A model generated the notes under the pieces. The model was given only the letters and a program-made list of their open reading frames with translations. It was not told the origin of the DNA and did no database searches. This document shows, piece by piece, positions 1 to 57,216 of a stretch of 64,000 nucleotides of DNA (positions are counted from its first letter, which is position 1; every line of letters begins with the position of its first letter). The translations under genes were made by a program, and so were the position numbers. Source of the DNA: Candidatus Sulfotelmatobacter sp. (lineage in GTDB: Bacteria > Vulcanimicrobiota > Vulcanimicrobiia > Vulcanimicrobiales > Vulcanimicrobiaceae); the NCBI GenBank assembly GCA_035504415.1, contig DATJRY010000010.1, positions 1-64,000 of the forward strand, given 5' to 3'.

Positions 1-2189
<2,189 letters not shown>

Positions 2190-44287: not shown

Positions 44288-44500
44288 ATGAAGAAGCAGG
44301 GCCCGCGGGCCGAGCTCAAGCTCGGCGATCACGTTCGCATCCCGGCCGACGACGTGGTCGGCACCGTCACCGACGTGCACCCGCACGAAGTGACCGTTAA
44401 GGTGACCATCGACGGTGAGACGGCGCACCGCAAGTACGCGTACGAGTCCGTCGAGCGCGTGGGCACGCTCGACGAAGTCTCGCACTACGTGGATCACTAG
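44288..44500 (+). CDS. Small KOW-like protein of unknown function
   Basis: 70 residues. LKLGDHVRIPADDVVGTVTDVHPHEVTVKV reads as a small SH3/KOW-type barrel. No named family recognised. Its TAG stop shares a CTAG palindrome with the stop of the convergent lipoprotein gene. Confidence 0.65.
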   Translation: MKKQGPRAELKLGDHVRIPADDVVGTVTDVHPHEVTVKVTIDGETAHRKYAYESVERVGTLDEVSHYVDH

Positions 44501-46131
44501 CTGCCGGAATACGGCGTGCAGGTCGCGAGCACGCTCTGGAACGTGCTCGAGAGGGTCGAGAGGACGGCGCTGTCGGTGACGTCCATGCCCCAGTCGATCT
44601 GATACGCCGCGCCGGCGGTCGCGTTCGACGAGCCGAACCAGCCCGTGCCCGAGCCGATCAGGGTCATCTTTTCGGCGCCCGAGGCGGGATTGAGCTCGAC
44701 GTCGGCGCCGGCGCTCTGCAGCTGGCTCAAGACCGTCTCCTCGCCCGAGTCGAGGTCGCTCTTGAGCACGATGACGTGGACGCTCTGGCCGCCCTGCGCG
44801 GCGGCCAGCAGCGCGCTCGCGACGTTGCCGGGCCCGAACGACTCGGTCATGAAGTCGACCGTTCCGCTGGTGTGCGCCTGGATGTAAGCGGTCTCCATCG
44901 ACAGCGAGTCCTGCTTGATCGTGTCGAGGCGCGTCCCGTCACCGGGATTCAGCGCCAGCGCGTTGCCGATCGTCGTCAGGTCGTTCGCGTTCGTGTCGCG
45001 CAGAATGACGTCGCCGCTGTCCCAGTTGCGGCCGTCGAGGAAGCCGACGCCATCGACGATCGCGAGCTTGGCGTGCAGCGGCTCGGGATTCGGTGACTGC
45101 GTGCCCGCGTCCCAAACGACGCTGCCGCCGGCCGCCTCGAGCGTCGCCGCGGACTGCTCGTCGGTGCTGTAGACACCGATGCTCTGCGCGTACGAATCGG
45201 ACGGGAGATCGACGGTCACGCTCGCGCCGGCCTTGGCCGCCGCCACGAGCGCGTTGAGCAGACCGCTGCTCGGCTCGAGGGTGTACGTGCTCAACTGGAC
45301 TTTCTTGCCGGCTTGAATCGTCGAGAGGACCGTCGCCTGGCTCACCACGGTCAGACCGGAGCCCGAGCTCGGCGTCGGGCTGGGTGTGGGCGTCGGCGTC
45401 GGCGTGGTGGTGGGCTTCGGCGTCGCCGTCGGCTTGGGCGTGGCGGTCGGCGTCGCGGTCGTCGTCGGTATCGGCGTCGGGGTCGCGGTCGGGCCCGCGG
45501 TGGGCGTCGCGGTCGGTGCGCTCGTCGACGTGCCGGTGAGGCTGACGTCGTCGACGTACTGCACGATGTGGTAGCTGCCGTCGGGGTCGCCTTTGACGCC
45601 GAAGTAGATCTCGACCGTCTGGCCGGCGTACGCGCTCAGGTCGTACGAGCGCTGCACCCAACCGCTGGTGGTGTTGGCTTCGGAGTAGATGGTGCTCAGG
45701 ATCGTGCCGCTCGTGTTGCGGACGTCGGCTTCCTGGTCGGCGTACTTCGTCGAGGTCTCGTTGGTCGATTCTTCGATCCAGAACGTCAGCGTCGCGCCGG
45801 CGGGCACGGTGACGGTCTGGTAGAGACCCGACGTGCCGTTGGGTTCGGTCGTCGTGTCACCCATCTTCGCGGCGTAGGAGCCGCTGTGCACGACGCTGGT
45901 CTGGATGGAGGCACTCACCGTACCGCCCTGTTTCCAGTACGTGTACGAGTCGGACTCGAAGCCGGGGTCTTGCATGACGTTCGTCGCGGCTTGCGCGACG
46001 GCGCTCGCGGTGCGCGAGCCGCCGGTCAGGTGCTGCTCGTTGGTGGGGACCGTGCCGTCGCGGCCACCGGAGCACGCGGCGATCGTGGCGACGAGCAAGA
46101 CGCTCGCGCAAATCATCGTCGGTCGTTGCAA
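44497..46131 (-). CDS. Lipoprotein with Thr-Pro linker and phospholipase D-like domain
   Basis: 544 residues. Lipobox TIAACS (Cys 20). Residues about 50-195 look like a carbohydrate-binding or jelly-roll module (NVMQDPGFESDSYTYW, VQYVDDVSLTG). Then about 65 residues of Thr/Pro repeats (TPTATPKPTATPKP), and from about 260 a PLD-like fold with one HKD-type motif, PLHAKLAIVDGVGFLDGRNWD, plus a second half ending GWFGSSNATAGAAYQIDWG where His and Lys are missing. Ends at the CTAG shared with the opposite gene. Surface enzyme or binder; substrate unknown. Confidence 0.75.
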   Translation of the reverse strand: MQRPTMICASVLLVATIAACSGGRDGTVPTNEQHLTGGSRTASAVAQAATNVMQDPGFESDSYTYWKQGGTVSASIQTSVVHSGSYAAKMGDTTTEPNGTSGLYQTVTVPAGATLTFWIEESTNETSTKYADQEADVRNTSGTILSTIYSEANTTSGWVQRSYDLSAYAGQTVEIYFGVKGDPDGSYHIVQYVDDVSLTGTSTSAPTATPTAGPTATPTPIPTTTATPTATPKPTATPKPTTTPTPTPTPSPTPSSGSGLTVVSQATVLSTIQAGKKVQLSTYTLEPSSGLLNALVAAAKAGASVTVDLPSDSYAQSIGVYSTDEQSAATLEAAGGSVVWDAGTQSPNPEPLHAKLAIVDGVGFLDGRNWDSGDVILRDTNANDLTTIGNALALNPGDGTRLDTIKQDSLSMETAYIQAHTSGTVDFMTESFGPGNVASALLAAAQGGQSVHVIVLKSDLDSGEETVLSQLQSAGADVELNPASGAEKMTLIGSGTGWFGSSNATAGAAYQIDWGMDVTDSAVLSTLSSTFQSVLATCTPYSGS

Positions 46132-46264: not shown

Positions 46265-47257
46265 ATGCGCTCGAAGGTCATTTTTTCTGGTATACAACCG
46301 ACGGGTGCGATTCACATCGGCAACTTTTTCGGTGCCATCAAGCAGTGGGTCGCGGGTCAAGACGAAGCCGAGAACATCTTTTGCCTGGTCGACATGCACG
46401 CGCTCACGGTCCCGCAAGAACCGGCCGCGCTGCGCGCGCAGATCGTCGAAACGGCGACGGTCCTGCTGGCGGCCGGGATCGACCCCCAGAAGTCGCGCCT
46501 GTACGTGCAGAGCGACGTGCGCGAGCACGGCGAGCTGACCTGGTACCTCTCGTGCGTCGGGTCGATGGGACAGTTGAACCGAATGACGCAGTTCAAGGAG
46601 AAGTCCGAGCAGCAGAAGGGGGAGGTGCGGGTCGGCCTGTTCATCTACCCGCTGCTGATGGCATCGGACATCCTGCTCTACCGCACGACGCACGTCCCGG
46701 TCGGCGAGGACCAGAAGCAGCACATCGAGCTGACGCGCGACCTCGCGCAGCGCTTCAACGCGACCTACGGCGAGACGTTCGTGCTGCCGGAGGCGACCGT
46801 CCCGGCGGCCGGCGCGCGCATCATGGGGCTCGACGACCCGACCAAGAAGATGTCCAAGAGCGCGCCGGGCTCGTACCATGCGGTGCGCGTGCTCGACACG
46901 CCCGATCAGATCCGCAAGACGGTGATGTCGGCGCAGACGGACAGCGGGCGCGACATCAAGCTCGACCCGCAGCGGCCCGGGGTGAGCAATCTGCTCGGCA
47001 TCTACATGGCCGCGACCGGCCAGACGCCGGCGCAGGCCGAAGCGCATTTCGCCAACGCGCGCGGCTACGGCGATCTCAAGAAAGAGATCGCCGAGCTGCT
47101 GGTCGAGACGCTGCGCCCGATCCGCGAGCGCTACGAGGACCTCTCGCGCGACCCGAGCGTCGTGCGCGAGATCCTGCAGCGCTGCGCCGACGAGCTGCGC
47201 CCGACGGCGCGCGCGACGACCGATGCGGTCAAACGGGCGATGGGCGCCGGCAGCTGA
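46265..47257 (+). CDS. trpS: Tryptophanyl-tRNA synthetase
   Basis: 330 residues. Class I features: SGIQPTGAIHIGNFFGAIKQW (HIGN), the Trp-binding core (MASDILLYRTTHVPVGEDQKQH) and KMSKSAPGS. Normal length. Start ATG 46265 precedes the canonical beginning SKVIFSGIQPTG. Confidence 0.97.
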   Translation: MRSKVIFSGIQPTGAIHIGNFFGAIKQWVAGQDEAENIFCLVDMHALTVPQEPAALRAQIVETATVLLAAGIDPQKSRLYVQSDVREHGELTWYLSCVGSMGQLNRMTQFKEKSEQQKGEVRVGLFIYPLLMASDILLYRTTHVPVGEDQKQHIELTRDLAQRFNATYGETFVLPEATVPAAGARIMGLDDPTKKMSKSAPGSYHAVRVLDTPDQIRKTVMSAQTDSGRDIKLDPQRPGVSNLLGIYMAATGQTPAQAEAHFANARGYGDLKKEIAELLVETLRPIRERYEDLSRDPSVVREILQRCADELRPTARATTDAVKRAMGAGS

Positions 47258-47259
47258 CC

Positions 47260-47541
47260 GTGACGGCCCTGCGCGCTCGGCTTCGCTCGATCGCGCTGCG
47301 CCGTGGCGGGTCGCCGCTGCCGACGGGCTATCCGTTCAACGTGCGCGCGATCCGTGAACGGCAAGAGGCATCGCGACGGGTTCTTCCTGCGTGCGCGCAG
47401 ATTCTCTCGTTCGACGGCGGCGGCGTCCATGAAGTCGCTTATCACGAGACGGACGCGTACGTCGTTACACGGCGGTTCCTGGCCGACCCCGAGCGAAGCT
47501 GCGCGGCGGTGCGGTCGTTGGCGGCGGCGAAGGTGCGGCCC
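47260..47541 (+). pseudogene. Degraded AAA-type ATPase (internal deletions)
   Basis: Starts with GTG after trpS. Three blocks of a large predicted-ATPase family appear in order: PLPTGYPFNVRAIRE (frame 1, the N-terminus ahead of the missing P-loop), GKRHRDGFFLRA (shifted frame, from 47360, the middle motif) and QILSFDGGGVHEVAYHETD to TRRFLADPERS (frame 1, the C-terminus). The P-loop, Walker B and switch regions are absent. No stop separates it from the next gene's frame. Best read as debris of a gene of about 230 residues. Confidence 0.6.
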
Positions 47542-49626
47542 ATGCGGATCGCGGGACTGGTCCTGATGGTGGTGGCGCTGGGTGTCGCGTACCCGGCAAC
47601 GCCCAGAGACGACGTGCGGGAGACCTTCTTCGGAACGACGGTCGCCGACCCGTATCGGTGGCTCGAGGCAGTGCACGCCCCGCGCGTGCGTGCTTGGGTC
47701 GCGCGGCAGGATGCGCTGACCGAAGCGACGCTCGCGAGCGTACCGCTGCGCGACACGCTCCGCGCGACGACACGACGCCTGTTCTCGATGCCCAGCCGGA
47801 GCTTGCCGCAGCGGGGCGGTCCGATCGCGGTCGTCGCGCGAACCGACGGCAGCGGGCGACGAGCCGTGCTCGTCGCGACCGGAGCGCACGGCGATCGGGT
47901 CGTGCTCGATCCGAACGTCGGCTGGGATCCGGCCGTCACGCTGGCCGACTGGAAGCTCGCGCCGGACGGAACGCACGTCGCCTACGCGACGAAGCGCGCC
48001 GGCCTGGGGTTGGTGCGCTGGCACGTCCGCTCGCTCGCGACCGGACGCGACTTGGCGGATCTGGTCGTCGGAACGCCCGATTGGGCCCCGATCGGGTGGA
48101 GCACGGATGGTCGCGGGTTCTATTACGGCGGCTACGCGAGCGAGGCGGCACGGGCGCCCGGCGAGCCGATCGGCCGGGGCTACACCGTGCGCTTCCACCG
48201 GCTCGGTGGCGATCAGCGCGACGACCGCGTCGTGTACGCGTTGCCGCAGCGCCCGACGTGGCTCCCCTACGCGCAGGAGAGCGACGACGGGCGCTATGTG
48301 ATCCTCGGGGCGATCGACGGCGGCGGCGGGAATCTCGTCGCCGTGCGCGACGCGCACGACCCGCGTGGTGCGATCCGCACGATCCGGCAGCTGTCCCCGT
48401 CGGTGTACTCATATGTCACGAGCGACGGACCGATCGCGTATTTCTTCACTAATGCGGGCGCACCGCGCGGCAAGCTCGTCGCGATCGATCTTCGCCAACC
48501 CGCGCATCAGTGGGACGTGATCCCCCAGAGCTCGCGAACGCTGGAAGACGTTAGCGCCGCCGGCGACCAGTTCCTCGCACGGTACCTGCACGACGTGCGC
48601 TCCGAGATCATCGCCTTCGACCGTCACGGCGCGCGGCTGCGCGCGTTACCGACGCCCGGCATCGGAACGGTCGCGAACGTCGCCGCGGACCCGTCGCACG
48701 CGAGCGCGTACTACGACTTCTCGAGCCCGACGACCCCGCCCAGCGTCTTCGCGTACGACAGCCGGGACGGCCGCACGCATTTGGTCGGCCGGCAGCGCGC
48801 CGTGTTCGATGCCGCGCAGTTCGTCACGGAGGAGCTCTTCGCACGCTCCGCCGACGGGACGCGCGTTCCCGTCTTCGTCGCGCACCGGCGCGGTCTGCGG
48901 CTCGACGGCTCACATCCGACGATGCTGACCGGCTACGGCGGTTTCGGCGACAGCTACCGGCCGGAGTGGTGGACGCCGAACGAAGCGTGGATCGCCGCCG
49001 GCGGCACGCTCGCCATCGCGTGCGTGCGCGGCGGCGGCGAGTACGGGCAGGCCTGGCACCGCGCGGGGATGCTCGGCAACAAGCAGCACGCCTTCGACGA
49101 TCTCGCCGCGGCGGCGCGCCTCCTGGTCGCGCGCGGCTACGCCACGCGGAAAACTTTGGGCTTGTACGGCTACTCCGGCGGTGGCTTGCTGGTCGGCGTC
49201 ACCGAAGTGCAGCATCCCGACCTGTTCGGGGCCGTCGTCGAGGCGGCCGGGCCGGTCGACGTCCTGCGCGGCGAGACGTACGGCAGCGAAGCGATCTGGA
49301 CGACCGAGGTCGGCTCGCCGACCAAGAGCGCGCGCGAGTTCGCGTGGCTCTACCGGTACGCGCCGCTCGTCGCCATTCGTCAAGGAACGCGCTACCCGGC
49401 GACGCTCGTGATGACCTCGGAGAACGACGAGCGCGTATCACCTGCGCATGCCTACAAGTTCGCGGCGACGTTGCAACGGGCGCAAGGCGGCGACGCACCG
49501 ATCCTCCTGGACGCCGTGCGCGGAACCGGTCACGTCGGCGGCGGCACGCTGGCCGCGCAGATCGCGCCGATCGTCGACGCCGACACGTTCCTCCTCGCGC
49601 ACCTCCGAACGTCGGCGGCGGATTGA
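47542..49626 (+). CDS. Prolyl oligopeptidase (S9A)-family serine protease, exported
   Basis: 694 residues from ATG 47542 with a signal peptide (IAGLVLMVVALGVAYPA). Family opening DDVRETFFGTTVADPYRWLE, a seven-bladed propeller (about 80-410), then the alpha/beta hydrolase: oxyanion GYGGFGDSYRP, ERGGGEYG-equivalent VRGGGEYGQAWH, nucleophile GYSGGGLL, acid SENDERVSPAHA, His GTGHVGG. Cleaves Pro-containing peptides. Its frame is fused upstream to the ATPase debris without a stop; the signal peptide argues for this start. Confidence 0.93.
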   Translation: MRIAGLVLMVVALGVAYPATPRDDVRETFFGTTVADPYRWLEAVHAPRVRAWVARQDALTEATLASVPLRDTLRATTRRLFSMPSRSLPQRGGPIAVVARTDGSGRRAVLVATGAHGDRVVLDPNVGWDPAVTLADWKLAPDGTHVAYATKRAGLGLVRWHVRSLATGRDLADLVVGTPDWAPIGWSTDGRGFYYGGYASEAARAPGEPIGRGYTVRFHRLGGDQRDDRVVYALPQRPTWLPYAQESDDGRYVILGAIDGGGGNLVAVRDAHDPRGAIRTIRQLSPSVYSYVTSDGPIAYFFTNAGAPRGKLVAIDLRQPAHQWDVIPQSSRTLEDVSAAGDQFLARYLHDVRSEIIAFDRHGARLRALPTPGIGTVANVAADPSHASAYYDFSSPTTPPSVFAYDSRDGRTHLVGRQRAVFDAAQFVTEELFARSADGTRVPVFVAHRRGLRLDGSHPTMLTGYGGFGDSYRPEWWTPNEAWIAAGGTLAIACVRGGGEYGQAWHRAGMLGNKQHAFDDLAAAARLLVARGYATRKTLGLYGYSGGGLLVGVTEVQHPDLFGAVVEAAGPVDVLRGETYGSEAIWTTEVGSPTKSAREFAWLYRYAPLVAIRQGTRYPATLVMTSENDERVSPAHAYKFAATLQRAQGGDAPILLDAVRGTGHVGGGTLAAQIAPIVDADTFLLAHLRTSAAD

Positions 49627-52315: not shown

Positions 52316-55300
52316 TTACGAGCACCCGCTCGTGGTGCCGCAGCTGTCGCATTTGAGGCACGTGCCGTTGCGGACGAGGGTGAACTGGCCGCACTGCGTG
52401 CACGCGTCGCCGCTGTAGCCCTTGGCAATCGCTTCGCGCGCCTTTTCGGCGACGATCTGGCCCTTTGCGGGACCACTCGTCGTCGTGCGGACCGCCGAGA
52501 CGGCGCCGACGGGCTCCGGCACGCGGCTGACCAACGCGGGCGGCGGTCCGGTACGGGTCGGCGTGGAGGCAGTCGGCGCGAGGTAGTGGACTTCGCCTTC
52601 CTCTTCGCCGACGTACTCGGGCTCCGGTCCCATCGCGTCCATCTGCGTCGACGGCTGCACCTGAGCGAGATCGTAGCGGCCGAGATAGCTCACCGCCAGC
52701 TCGCGGAAGATGTAGTCGAGGATCGACGTCGCCATCTTGATGTTCTCGTGACCGATGACGGGCCCGTTGGGCTCGAAGCGCGTGAAGGTGAATGCGTCGA
52801 CGTACTCCTCGAGCGGGACGCCGTGCTGCAAGCCCAGCGAGACCGCGATCGCGAAGTTGTTCATCAGCGAGCGGAAGGCCGCGCCTTCCTTGTGCATGTC
52901 GATGAAGATCTCGCCGAGGGTGCCGTCGTCGTATTGACCGGTCCGCAAGTAGACTTTGTGGCCGCCGACGATCGCCTTCTGCGTGTAGCCGCCGCGGCGA
53001 TCCGGCATGCGCCGGCGCTTGGCGATGTAGCGGTACACGATCTTCTCGGCGATCTGGACCGGCGTGTCGTAGGCGGCTTGCGGAGCCTCCTCCTCGTCGC
53101 CGGCACCGACGTCGTAGCTGGCCGCCAGCGGCTGCGAGAGCTTCGAGCCGTCGCGATAGAGCGCGACCGCCTTGACCATCTTCTCCCAGGAGTAGCGGTA
53201 GGCGTCCTTGACGTCTTGCACGCTCGCCGTTTGCGGGAGGTTGATCGTCTTCGAGATCGCGCCGGAGATGAACGGCTGCGCGGCCGCCATCATGTCGACG
53301 TGCGCCAGCGGACGGATGTAGCGCGAGCCGTGCTTCCCGCACGGGGTGGCGCAGTCGAAGACCGCCAGGTGCTCGTCCTTGAGGAACGGCGCGCCTTCGA
53401 GCGTCATCCGCCCGCAGATCACGTCGGAGGCTTCCTCGATCTGCGCTTGGGTGAAGCCCAGCGCGTCGCGCAGGATCGAATAGTTCCAATCCGCCAGCTG
53501 CGCGTCGGTCATCCCGAGCTTCTCTTTGCAGAACCGCTCGCCCAGCACGTGCTGGTTGAACGCGAACCCGATCTCGAACGCGCCGGGTAGACCGGCTTCG
53601 ATCTTGGCCAGGGCCTCGTCGTCGAAGCCCTTCGCCTTGAGCGTCGCGCGGTTGATGTGCGGCGTGCCCTCGAGCGTGTTGGTGCCCTTGGCGAACGTCT
53701 CGATGGCCGCGATCTGCTCGCTGTTGTAGCCGAGACGGCGCAGGGCCGGCTCGACCGACTGGTTGACGATCTTGAAGTAGCCGCCGCCGGCGAGCTTCTT
53801 GAACTTGACCAGCGCGAAGTCGGGCTCGATCCCGGTGGTATCGCAATCCATCACCAGGCCGATGGTGCCGGTCGGCGCGATGCAGGTGACCTGCGCGTTG
53901 CGGTAGCCGGCGACCTCGCCGATCGCCAGCGCGTTGTCCCAGGTCGTGCGTGCCAGCTGCCACGTCTCTTGCGTGAAGAGCGTGGGCTGATGCGTGACCG
54001 GAACGACGGTCAGGCCTTCGTAGTCCTCGGCCCGCGCCGCGTATGCCGCCTGGCGGTGGTTGCGCAGCACGCGGCCCATGTCCTCAGCGTTGCGCTCGTA
54101 GGAGGGAAACGGTCCCAGCTCGCGCGCCATCTCGGCCGAGGCTTTGTAGGCGGCGCCCGTCATCAGCGCGCTGATCGCCGCGCACCAGCCGAAGCCTTCC
54201 TCCGAGTCGTACGGCAAACCCAGCCGCATGAGCAGCGTGCCGAGATTGGCGTAGCCCAGGCCGAGCGTGCGGTACTCGTACGAGCGGCGCGCGATCTCGC
54301 GGCTGGGGAACTGCGCCATCAGCACGCTGACTTCGAGCGTGAACGTCCAAATGCGGCACGCCTCGGCGAACTTCTTGGCGTCGAATTGCCCACGATCGTC
54401 GAGGAACGTCACGAGATTGAGGCTTGCAAGATTACAGCTCGTGTCATCGAGGAACATGTATTCGGAGCAGTTGTGAACGACGACGCCATTGCCAATGAAG
54501 TGAGACGTGTCGGGCTCGGTCAGATCATAGACCGGCTCTTCGCCTTCATACCGGACGAATGTGACCTCATCCGTCATGTGATCCCGATACGTCGTCACAC
54601 TTGCGTTGAGGCGTCGAAGCGCGAGCGCCTTATCGGAAGCAGCGATGAACCCGATCTGCTGTTCGAACGCGATGCGCGATGAGCGCGTGATGCGAAGCGA
54701 GTGCATCTCACGAACTGGGTATGACGCGGTGCCCCCGCGGCCGTCCGGCAGCATTGCCGCGTCCGTACCGGCTCGGCGGTCACGATAGAGCTTTGCCTTT
54801 ACACCGAAGGACAGGAGCGTCAACTGCACCTGCTGCAGGAGGGCCAGCGAGGTCGAATCGAGCGAGACGTACTGGGTCTTCTCACCTATATCGACGACGC
54901 AGCCGTCTGCGGTGAAGAGTCCGCGCAACATTGCAGCCGTCGACGTACGGTCGAGCCCGAAGAAGGCTGAGCGGAAGCGCTTCTCGTGGCTTCCTTTGTC
55001 GAGCACAGCGAATTCTTCGAACGCCGAAACGACGCTCGACGCGTTCGTTTGAACGCGAGCAGTCGTCTGTGGCGTGCGCACGGCGACTCGACGAGCCGTG
55101 CGCCCGTCGGTGGCGCCGACTTTGAGGTCATTGATGGCGGCCGCTACGCCTTCCACGACGTCGGCTTCCGAAGGCGCCATCGTCACGGCGAGGTAGCGCG
55201 TGCCATTCGGATCGCTCGTTACGCAGCCATCGCCGACGGAAAGGCCAATCGCCTCCGCCAGCGTCGTGTCGATCGCCCGACCGCCGAATCCGGACCCGCT

Positions 55301-56962
55301 GAGCATGACGCGCTCACCCGCGATGAGATCTTTGGCTGCGACGTCACCGCGCTCTTCGGTCAGGACCTTGTGGTCCGCCGTAAGGCGCAGCTCGAAGCCC
55401 GAGCGCGTGCGCAGTCGGTAGACAGGCTTCGTCCCGGTCGGGAAGATGCGGTTGACGAAGTGCGGCTTTCCGTCGGAGCCGATGACGAACGCCGCCTTAC
55501 CGACGAGCTCGTCGATGCGGTGCAGGCCATCGGCCGTGGCAACCATCGTGTCGCCGGTAACGCATGGATTGCTGGCGTTGATCTTGCCGTCGGCGATGCA
55601 GGTGTGCCACTCGTTGATGGTCGTGTCGTACTGCACGCCGGGATCGGCACATTGCCACGCCGCGACGGCGATCTTCTCCCAGAGATCCTCGGCCGGCACG
55701 GATTTTGCGACGCCGGCGTTCTTGCGCCAGGTCAGGTCCCAAGTTTGCCCAGCGTCGAGCCGGGCGAAGAACTCGTTCGAGATGCGAACCGAGTTGTTCG
55801 AATTCTGACCGGAGACGGTGCCGTAGGCCTTTGAATCCCAATTGGTGTCATAGGTCTCGATCTGCAGCTCGCGATAGCCTTGGCGCGCGAAGTCGAGCGC
55901 GTACTGGACGTTCGCCTGCGGGATTCCCATCGTGAGCGCGCTACGAATCGCCGAGCGCAGTTTGGGATTGAGCGCGGGGTCGAGTCGCGCCGATTCCGGC
56001 AACGTTTCGTCGTGCGCCGCGGCGAGGATCGCGTTGAGGTGCTTTTCGCAGACGATCGAGCCGGCGACCAGGTCGGAGACTTTCTGCTCCTCGGTCACCT
56101 TCCAGCTGATGAATTCCTCGATGTCGGGATGATCGAGATCGAGCGTGACCATCTTCGCTGCGCGACGCGTCGTACCGCCGGACTTGATCGCGCCTGCCGC
56201 GCGATCGCCGACCTTGAGGAACGACATCAGACCCGACGACGTCCCGCCGCCGGAAAGCCGTTCGCCTTCGCCGCGGATCGCCGAGAAATTCGACCCCGTG
56301 CCGGAGCCGTATTTGAAGATGCGCGCCTCACGAACCCACAGGTCCATGATGCCGCCCTCGTTGACCAAATCGTCGCTTACACTCTGGATAAAGCAAGCGT
56401 GCGGGGCTGGGTGCTCGTAGGCGCTCGTCGATTGGCCGAGCACGTGCGTCTTGGGATCGACGAACCAGTGGCCTTGCGCCGGGCCGGCGATGCCGTACGC
56501 CCAGTGCAGGCCGGTGTTGAACCACTGCGGCGAGTTGGGCGCGCCGATCTGGCGGGCCAGCATCGCGCACATCTCGTCATAGTAGGCGCGCGCCTGGAAC
56601 TCGTCGTCGAAGTAGCCGTGCTTGAAGGCCCAATAGGTCCAGCAGCCGGCCAGCCGGTGGAAGACCTGGCGGGCGTCCGTCTCGCCGATGAAGGTCGCGT
56701 CGGAGGCCGGCTCCGAGCGCCAGAGCCACTCCGGGATCCCCTCTTCGGGCACACGCACCGTCGCCGTCGGGACCCCGGCCCGCCGGAAATACTTCTGGGC
56801 CAGGATATCCGCCGCCACCTGGCTCCAGGCGCTCGGAATCTGGACGTCCTTGGCCTCGAAGACGACCTTGCCATCCGGGTTGGCGATGCGCGAGGTCCGG
56901 GGCTCGAAGGTGATGCCGGCGTAGGGATCGCCGGGTTGAGAATAGGTGCGCGCGAACTTCAT
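52316..56962 (-). CDS. nrdJ: Vitamin B12-dependent (class II) ribonucleotide reductase, intein-containing
   Basis: 1548 residues before splicing, about 1183 after. The start is the ATG at 56962 ([21 protein letters not shown]); the frame continues upstream only through the promoter/operator. Class II motifs: [41 protein letters not shown]-(intein)[20 protein letters not shown], GVGGNLPIGL-type loops, and [15 protein letters not shown]. The C-terminal zinc-ribbon [23 protein letters not shown] has CxxC pairs and the redox tail. Reduces ribonucleotides to deoxyribonucleotides with adenosylcobalamin, so it works with or without oxygen. Promoter has a LexA box. Confidence 0.95.
54470..55564 (-). 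mobile_element. LAGLIDADG intein in nrdJ
   Basis: 365 residues inserted in NASNP|CSEYMF, a conserved active-site region. Starts [14 protein letters not shown] (block A, Cys1), block [13 protein letters not shown] endonuclease blocks [11 protein letters not shown] and [12 protein letters not shown] with acidic residues intact, block [16 protein letters not shown], block G GVVVHN|C with Cys+1. All splicing residues are present. Base composition is less GC-rich than the exteins, as for a horizontally moving element. Self-splices to restore nrdJ; endonuclease probably still able to home. Confidence 0.93.
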
Positions 56963-57007
56963 GCCGGCTGCGTCCTCACGAGGGAGATGCGTGGCGGAGG
57001 GACGACC

Positions 57008-57036
57008 ATTCTCGAACATGCGTTCGAGAATGTCAA
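57008..57036 (-). promoter_or_regulatory. nrdJ promoter with overlapping LexA-type SOS box
   Basis: On the minus strand, TTGACA (57036-57031) and GAGAAT (57013-57008) are 17 bases apart. The spacer and -10 are filled by an 11-bp inverted repeat, CATTCTCGAAC and complement around ATGC (57007-57032 on plus), whose core CGAAC-N4-GTTCG (57013-57026) matches the Gram-positive/actinobacterial LexA box. It ends about 45 bases before the nrdJ ATG. A bound repressor would block RNA polymerase. Confidence 0.8.
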
Positions 57037-57216
57037 TCCCCGCCGAGTTGCCCCTGGGCGGGCTTCGGCACCAGATATGGTGGCCGTCCCCGTCGGGCTG
57101 TACTAGATATTGTACACCGTCCGAAGTCCCTTGTGAATGATGGGGGACACGAATCATATTCCCGTGGACAACCCGACCGGGCGCTGTGGAGGCCCGGCGA
57201 GCGGGGTGAGGGCCCT

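Follow-up and report, generated by a model that had tools for sequence, protein, structure and literature searches.

A probable pseudogene of a small P-loop ATPase between trpS and a prolyl-oligopeptidase-family gene in Candidatus Sulfotelmatobacter sp.

Results

Layout of the locus

The window (the whole stretch of 64,000 nucleotides analysed here) carries on its forward strand the gene for tryptophanyl-tRNA synthetase, trpS (46265..47257; Pfam tRNA-synt_1b, E 4.1e-73), which shows 44-86% identity to the loci of ten relatives. Its right-hand neighbour on the same strand encodes a prolyl-oligopeptidase (POP)-family peptidase (47542..49626; Pfam Peptidase_S9_N, E 2e-67, and Peptidase_S9, E 4.2e-39), the N terminus of which, MRIAGLVLMVVALGVAYPA, is hydrophobic and by eye resembles a signal peptide. 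The 282 bases enclosed by these genes (47260..47541, forward strand) are read here as what is left of the gene for a small stand-alone ATPase, which can no longer encode the enzyme. A GTG, probably the old start codon of the ATPase gene, lies at 47260, 2 bases past the trpS stop. As the first-pass annotation had stated, the frame of this GTG, about 94-95 aa long, is free of stops up to and into the peptidase ATG at 47542. Scans of the region for promoter and terminator patterns and for Rfam families found none.

Identification of the ATPase family

The 95-aa frame has no match in Pfam or NCBIfam at E values up to 1, and its only matches among solved structures are to DNA polymerase eta, at chance level. 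When plasmids were searched in translation, nine weak matches came up, of which the best has an E value of 0.2 and is confined to the C-terminal half. The open frame underlying the Caballeronia plasmid match is a 251-aa ATPase which contains all three of the blocks described below and which matches AAA_21, AAA_15 and other P-loop ATPase models of Pfam. We take this family to be COG3910, predicted ATPase.

For a more sensitive comparison a profile of 252 positions was built from 82 homologues, five of them from our own searches and 77 from the 80 loci of a scan of named-genome contigs; the other three (L133, L138 and L142) were left out because their extracted frames held a stop. In a HMMER search of the six translated frames, profile positions 9-39 and 210-245 are matched in the frame of 47260 (E 1.3e-10) and positions 97-117 in the next frame (E 4.1e-4), and the three matches are colinear. 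The N-terminal block (47281..47352, forward strand; LRSIALRR...GYPFNVRAI) carries the family motif L-x-R...YPF, keeps 5/5 family-invariant residues and matches the ATPases of genomes G022, G002 and G086 at 39-48%. The middle block (47366..47395, forward strand; RHRDGFFLRA) lies in the next frame, contains the motif D-x-FF-x-RA with its invariants likewise complete (5/5), and matches G086, Caballeronia, G002 and G022 at 33-48%. The C-terminal block (47395..47511, forward strand; AQILSFDGGGVHEVAYHETDAYVVTRRFLADPERS...) returns to the first frame and retains six of the eight invariants of the motif I...Y..T......R.FL. With the intact gene of G086, its best match among the six relatives compared, it has 23 of 33 residues in common (E 2.9e-15, when the short stretch alone is searched), and it is the only block that matches the distant relatives in G092 and G096 in pairwise comparison.

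In an alignment of four sequences, 16 of the 18 invariant columns that fall inside the blocks are kept. The alignment has 86 invariant columns in all, and the other 68 have disappeared with the missing parts; they include those of the P-loop (GENGSGKST), the signature (SHGE) and Walker B (DEPE). The pairwise and profile matches thus bear out what the first-pass annotation had proposed, namely three blocks of one ATPase family in the right order, the middle one in a different frame, with the P-loop and Walker B region gone. The translated comparison with predicted ATPases that it had called for matches all three blocks to the family. The remnant shares the order of N-terminal, middle and C-terminal blocks with small stand-alone AAA family ATPases (about 250 aa, similar to Pfam AAA_21/AAA_15), but it differs from them in the absence of the P-loop, signature and Walker B regions and in its out-of-frame middle block.

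Comparison with chance

In a frame-tolerant alignment to the profile the remnant scores 196 half-bit units. This score was reached by none of 890 other windows of 284 bases from both strands of the 64-kb sequence (highest score 69) and by none of 1000 dinucleotide shuffles (highest score 63). Because the family had first been found through the C-terminal block, the N-terminal and middle blocks (47258-47395) were also tested without it. They score 5.9 bits per block and 11.8 bits when chained, and 0/2000 shuffles and 0/1839 windows reached these values, either as best or as chained score; the closest single window came to 5.4 bits against 5.9. Since the controls never reach the observed scores, we regard the three-block pattern as real. 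Together with the profile score and the invariant residues that are kept, the controls lend strong support to the reading of the stretch as an ATPase remnant. The third-position GC content is 0.91 for trpS and 0.88 for the peptidase gene, but 0.79 for the remnant frame; the lower value is what relaxed selection would produce, although the stretch is short.

ATPase copies in the genome and its relatives

No intact ATPase of the family was found in the assembly itself, which is 95.7% complete, with the Caballeronia and G086 proteins as queries. Among the 99 genomes of the same family, three (G022, G002 and G086) carry close relatives with 50-57% identity to the Caballeronia query, all intact and of normal length. 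Ten further genomes of the 99 carry a more distant version, mostly longer, at E 2e-23 or better. At a threshold of E 0.001 the ATPase query matches 35/99 genomes in total, including weaker matches, which are taken to be general P-loop ATPases. The G086 protein as query finds matches at E 1e-25 in six of 149 genomes of the phylum, and intact relatives are also present in the 77 of 80 named-genome loci that were used for the profile.

A protein search of 11 genomes of the genus with the 95-aa frame gave only weak partial matches outside the locus (best E 8.6e-4), and the same remnant was not found in a second genome. In G094 the coding sequence of a distant ATPase relative (L064, contig C219, about 1480-2126, reverse strand) is broken up between two frames, and its middle part is missing. 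Either this gene, too, may be in decay or the short contig may be at fault.

The position after trpS in relatives

The DNA of trpS has matches in at least 11 of the 99 genomes, its own included. The ten relatives whose loci were confirmed as trpS and examined, eight of the same genus and two of another, are those with sufficiently alike trpS DNA, and thus a part of all relatives. An ATPase gene downstream of trpS is found in 0/10 of these loci, so that an intact gene in the space between trpS and the peptidase gene, for which the first-pass annotation suggested looking, was not encountered. The peptidase is likewise next to trpS in none of the ten, and no relative with the order trpS-peptidase was found. 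Instead, trpS is followed by a formamidopyrimidine-DNA glycosylase gene in G096 and by a gene of similar appearance in G094. In G092 the next gene is sigma-factor-like, in G059 (and by eye in G060) it encodes an aminotransferase, and G093 and G091 have a PNKP-ligase protein and an EAL/GGDEF protein, respectively; for G087, G088 and G089 the frames scanned against Pfam had no match. The neighbour of trpS thus changes in nearly every relative, which makes the position a variable slot in the loci read, and among these loci an ATPase and the peptidase stand together after trpS only in the genome under study. In G060 a weak ATPase match (31% over 83 aa, E 0.001) lies on the upstream side of trpS, within an open frame that looks like a thiamin-pathway kinase; we attribute this match to chance.

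Discussion

Three colinear pieces of an ATPase family are present at the locus, and the parts that bind and hydrolyse ATP are missing. We are confident that 47260-47541 is an ordinary pseudogene of a small P-loop ATPase, disabled by two internal deletions and without a functional fusion to its neighbour. Its ancestor would have been an intact ATPase gene that followed trpS directly. The P-loop region on the one hand, and the signature and Walker B region on the other, would have been lost through two internal deletions, of approximately 220 and 310 bases when measured against the relative in G086 and of fewer bases against shorter members of the family. Taken together, the deletions would leave the frame unchanged; as the original stop towards the C-terminal end appears to be lost too, the frame continues by accident into the peptidase gene. 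What is left would no longer have any ATPase role. We can only infer the junctions, the deletions and their order, because no relative was found with an intact copy at the locus.

That the net frame is kept has a probability of one in three in the absence of selection, but might instead point to selection for translation. The first-pass annotation had suggested that the peptidase might carry the translated remnant as an N-terminal extension. Translation from the GTG at 47260 would then yield either a second, non-exported peptidase or a leader that couples the translation of the peptidase to that of trpS, and the closeness of this GTG to the trpS stop, the frame open into 47542 and the mutual cancellation of the deletions would all fit. 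However, a frame of 282 bases is open by chance in 489 of 2000 shuffles (24%) and in 3409 of 7498 real frames of the window (45%). Since frames in this GC-rich window are often open by chance, the open frame into the peptidase is unremarkable. The extension would furthermore bury the signal-peptide-like N terminus of the peptidase, and because the middle block is read in the wrong frame, the joint protein would have a nonsense centre. The nearest POP relative, in G075 (59%), aligns from residue 1 and has no such extension; none of 29 loci of POP relatives, each with about 1.5 kb upstream at most, has an ATPase-like stretch beside the peptidase gene, and a scan of named-genome contigs with the POP peptidase returned 99 pattern matches with no relative among them. 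We therefore consider the suggested extension unsupported and translation of the remnant from 47260 very unlikely. Similarly little credence is given to a coupling from trpS through the leader to the peptidase that keeps the frame translated, whether as a leader that sets expression or as a cytoplasmic peptidase with an ATPase-derived tail. On the sequence evidence, with a frame open at chance level and the G075 peptidase free of any extension, a functional ATPase-peptidase fusion is likewise considered improbable. Most likely translation of the peptidase starts at its own ATG, at 47542, and the product is exported.

It would be possible to ascribe the deletions to an assembly or sequencing artefact, with an intact ATPase gene at this place in the living organism, given that a single assembly carries the locus. 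This would, however, need two separate internal losses and a lost stop within one contig of 306 kb in which the flanking genes are intact, and the rest of the assembly contains no ATPase of the family; we regard it as extremely improbable. That the similarity is fortuitous, or that the stretch is the gene of an unrelated small protein, could be argued from the silence of Pfam and NCBIfam on the 95-aa frame. Chance similarity is contradicted by the profile matches to three ordered blocks and by the controls, and a small conserved protein was not found in the 11 genomes of the genus, which show only weak matches outside the locus. We accordingly give these two readings virtually no weight.

The pseudogene interpretation describes ordinary gene decay in biological terms. 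It is nevertheless a clean case of a remnant on which Pfam and NCBIfam are silent and which is revealed by family blocks lying in shifted frames. For annotators it means that neither the 1131-aa open frame nor the 788-aa fusion should be taken as the peptidase. As far as titles and the opening lines of abstracts tell, the remnant resembles known bacterial pseudogenes (e.g., those of the survey PMC522871) in being the disabled version of a known gene with a patchy distribution, flanked by intact genes, and nothing notable sets it apart from them except that its frame stays open into the next gene; the titles and abstract openings found give no description of this locus.

Other genes of the window

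To the left of trpS, on the reverse strand, lies the gene of a PLD-like protein with a long linker of the TPTPTP type (44497-46131; Pfam PLDc_2, E 5e-13). A class II ribonucleotide reductase gene of 1613 aa (52316-57157, reverse strand) contains an intein, as evident from matches inside the reductase domains to Pfam Intein_splicing (E 7.1e-14) and LAGLIDADG_3 (E 3.3e-19). It lies 5 kb downstream of trpS, and in G094 a relative of the reductase is likewise found approximately 5 kb downstream of trpS; the insert of this relative also ends, by eye, in HNC.
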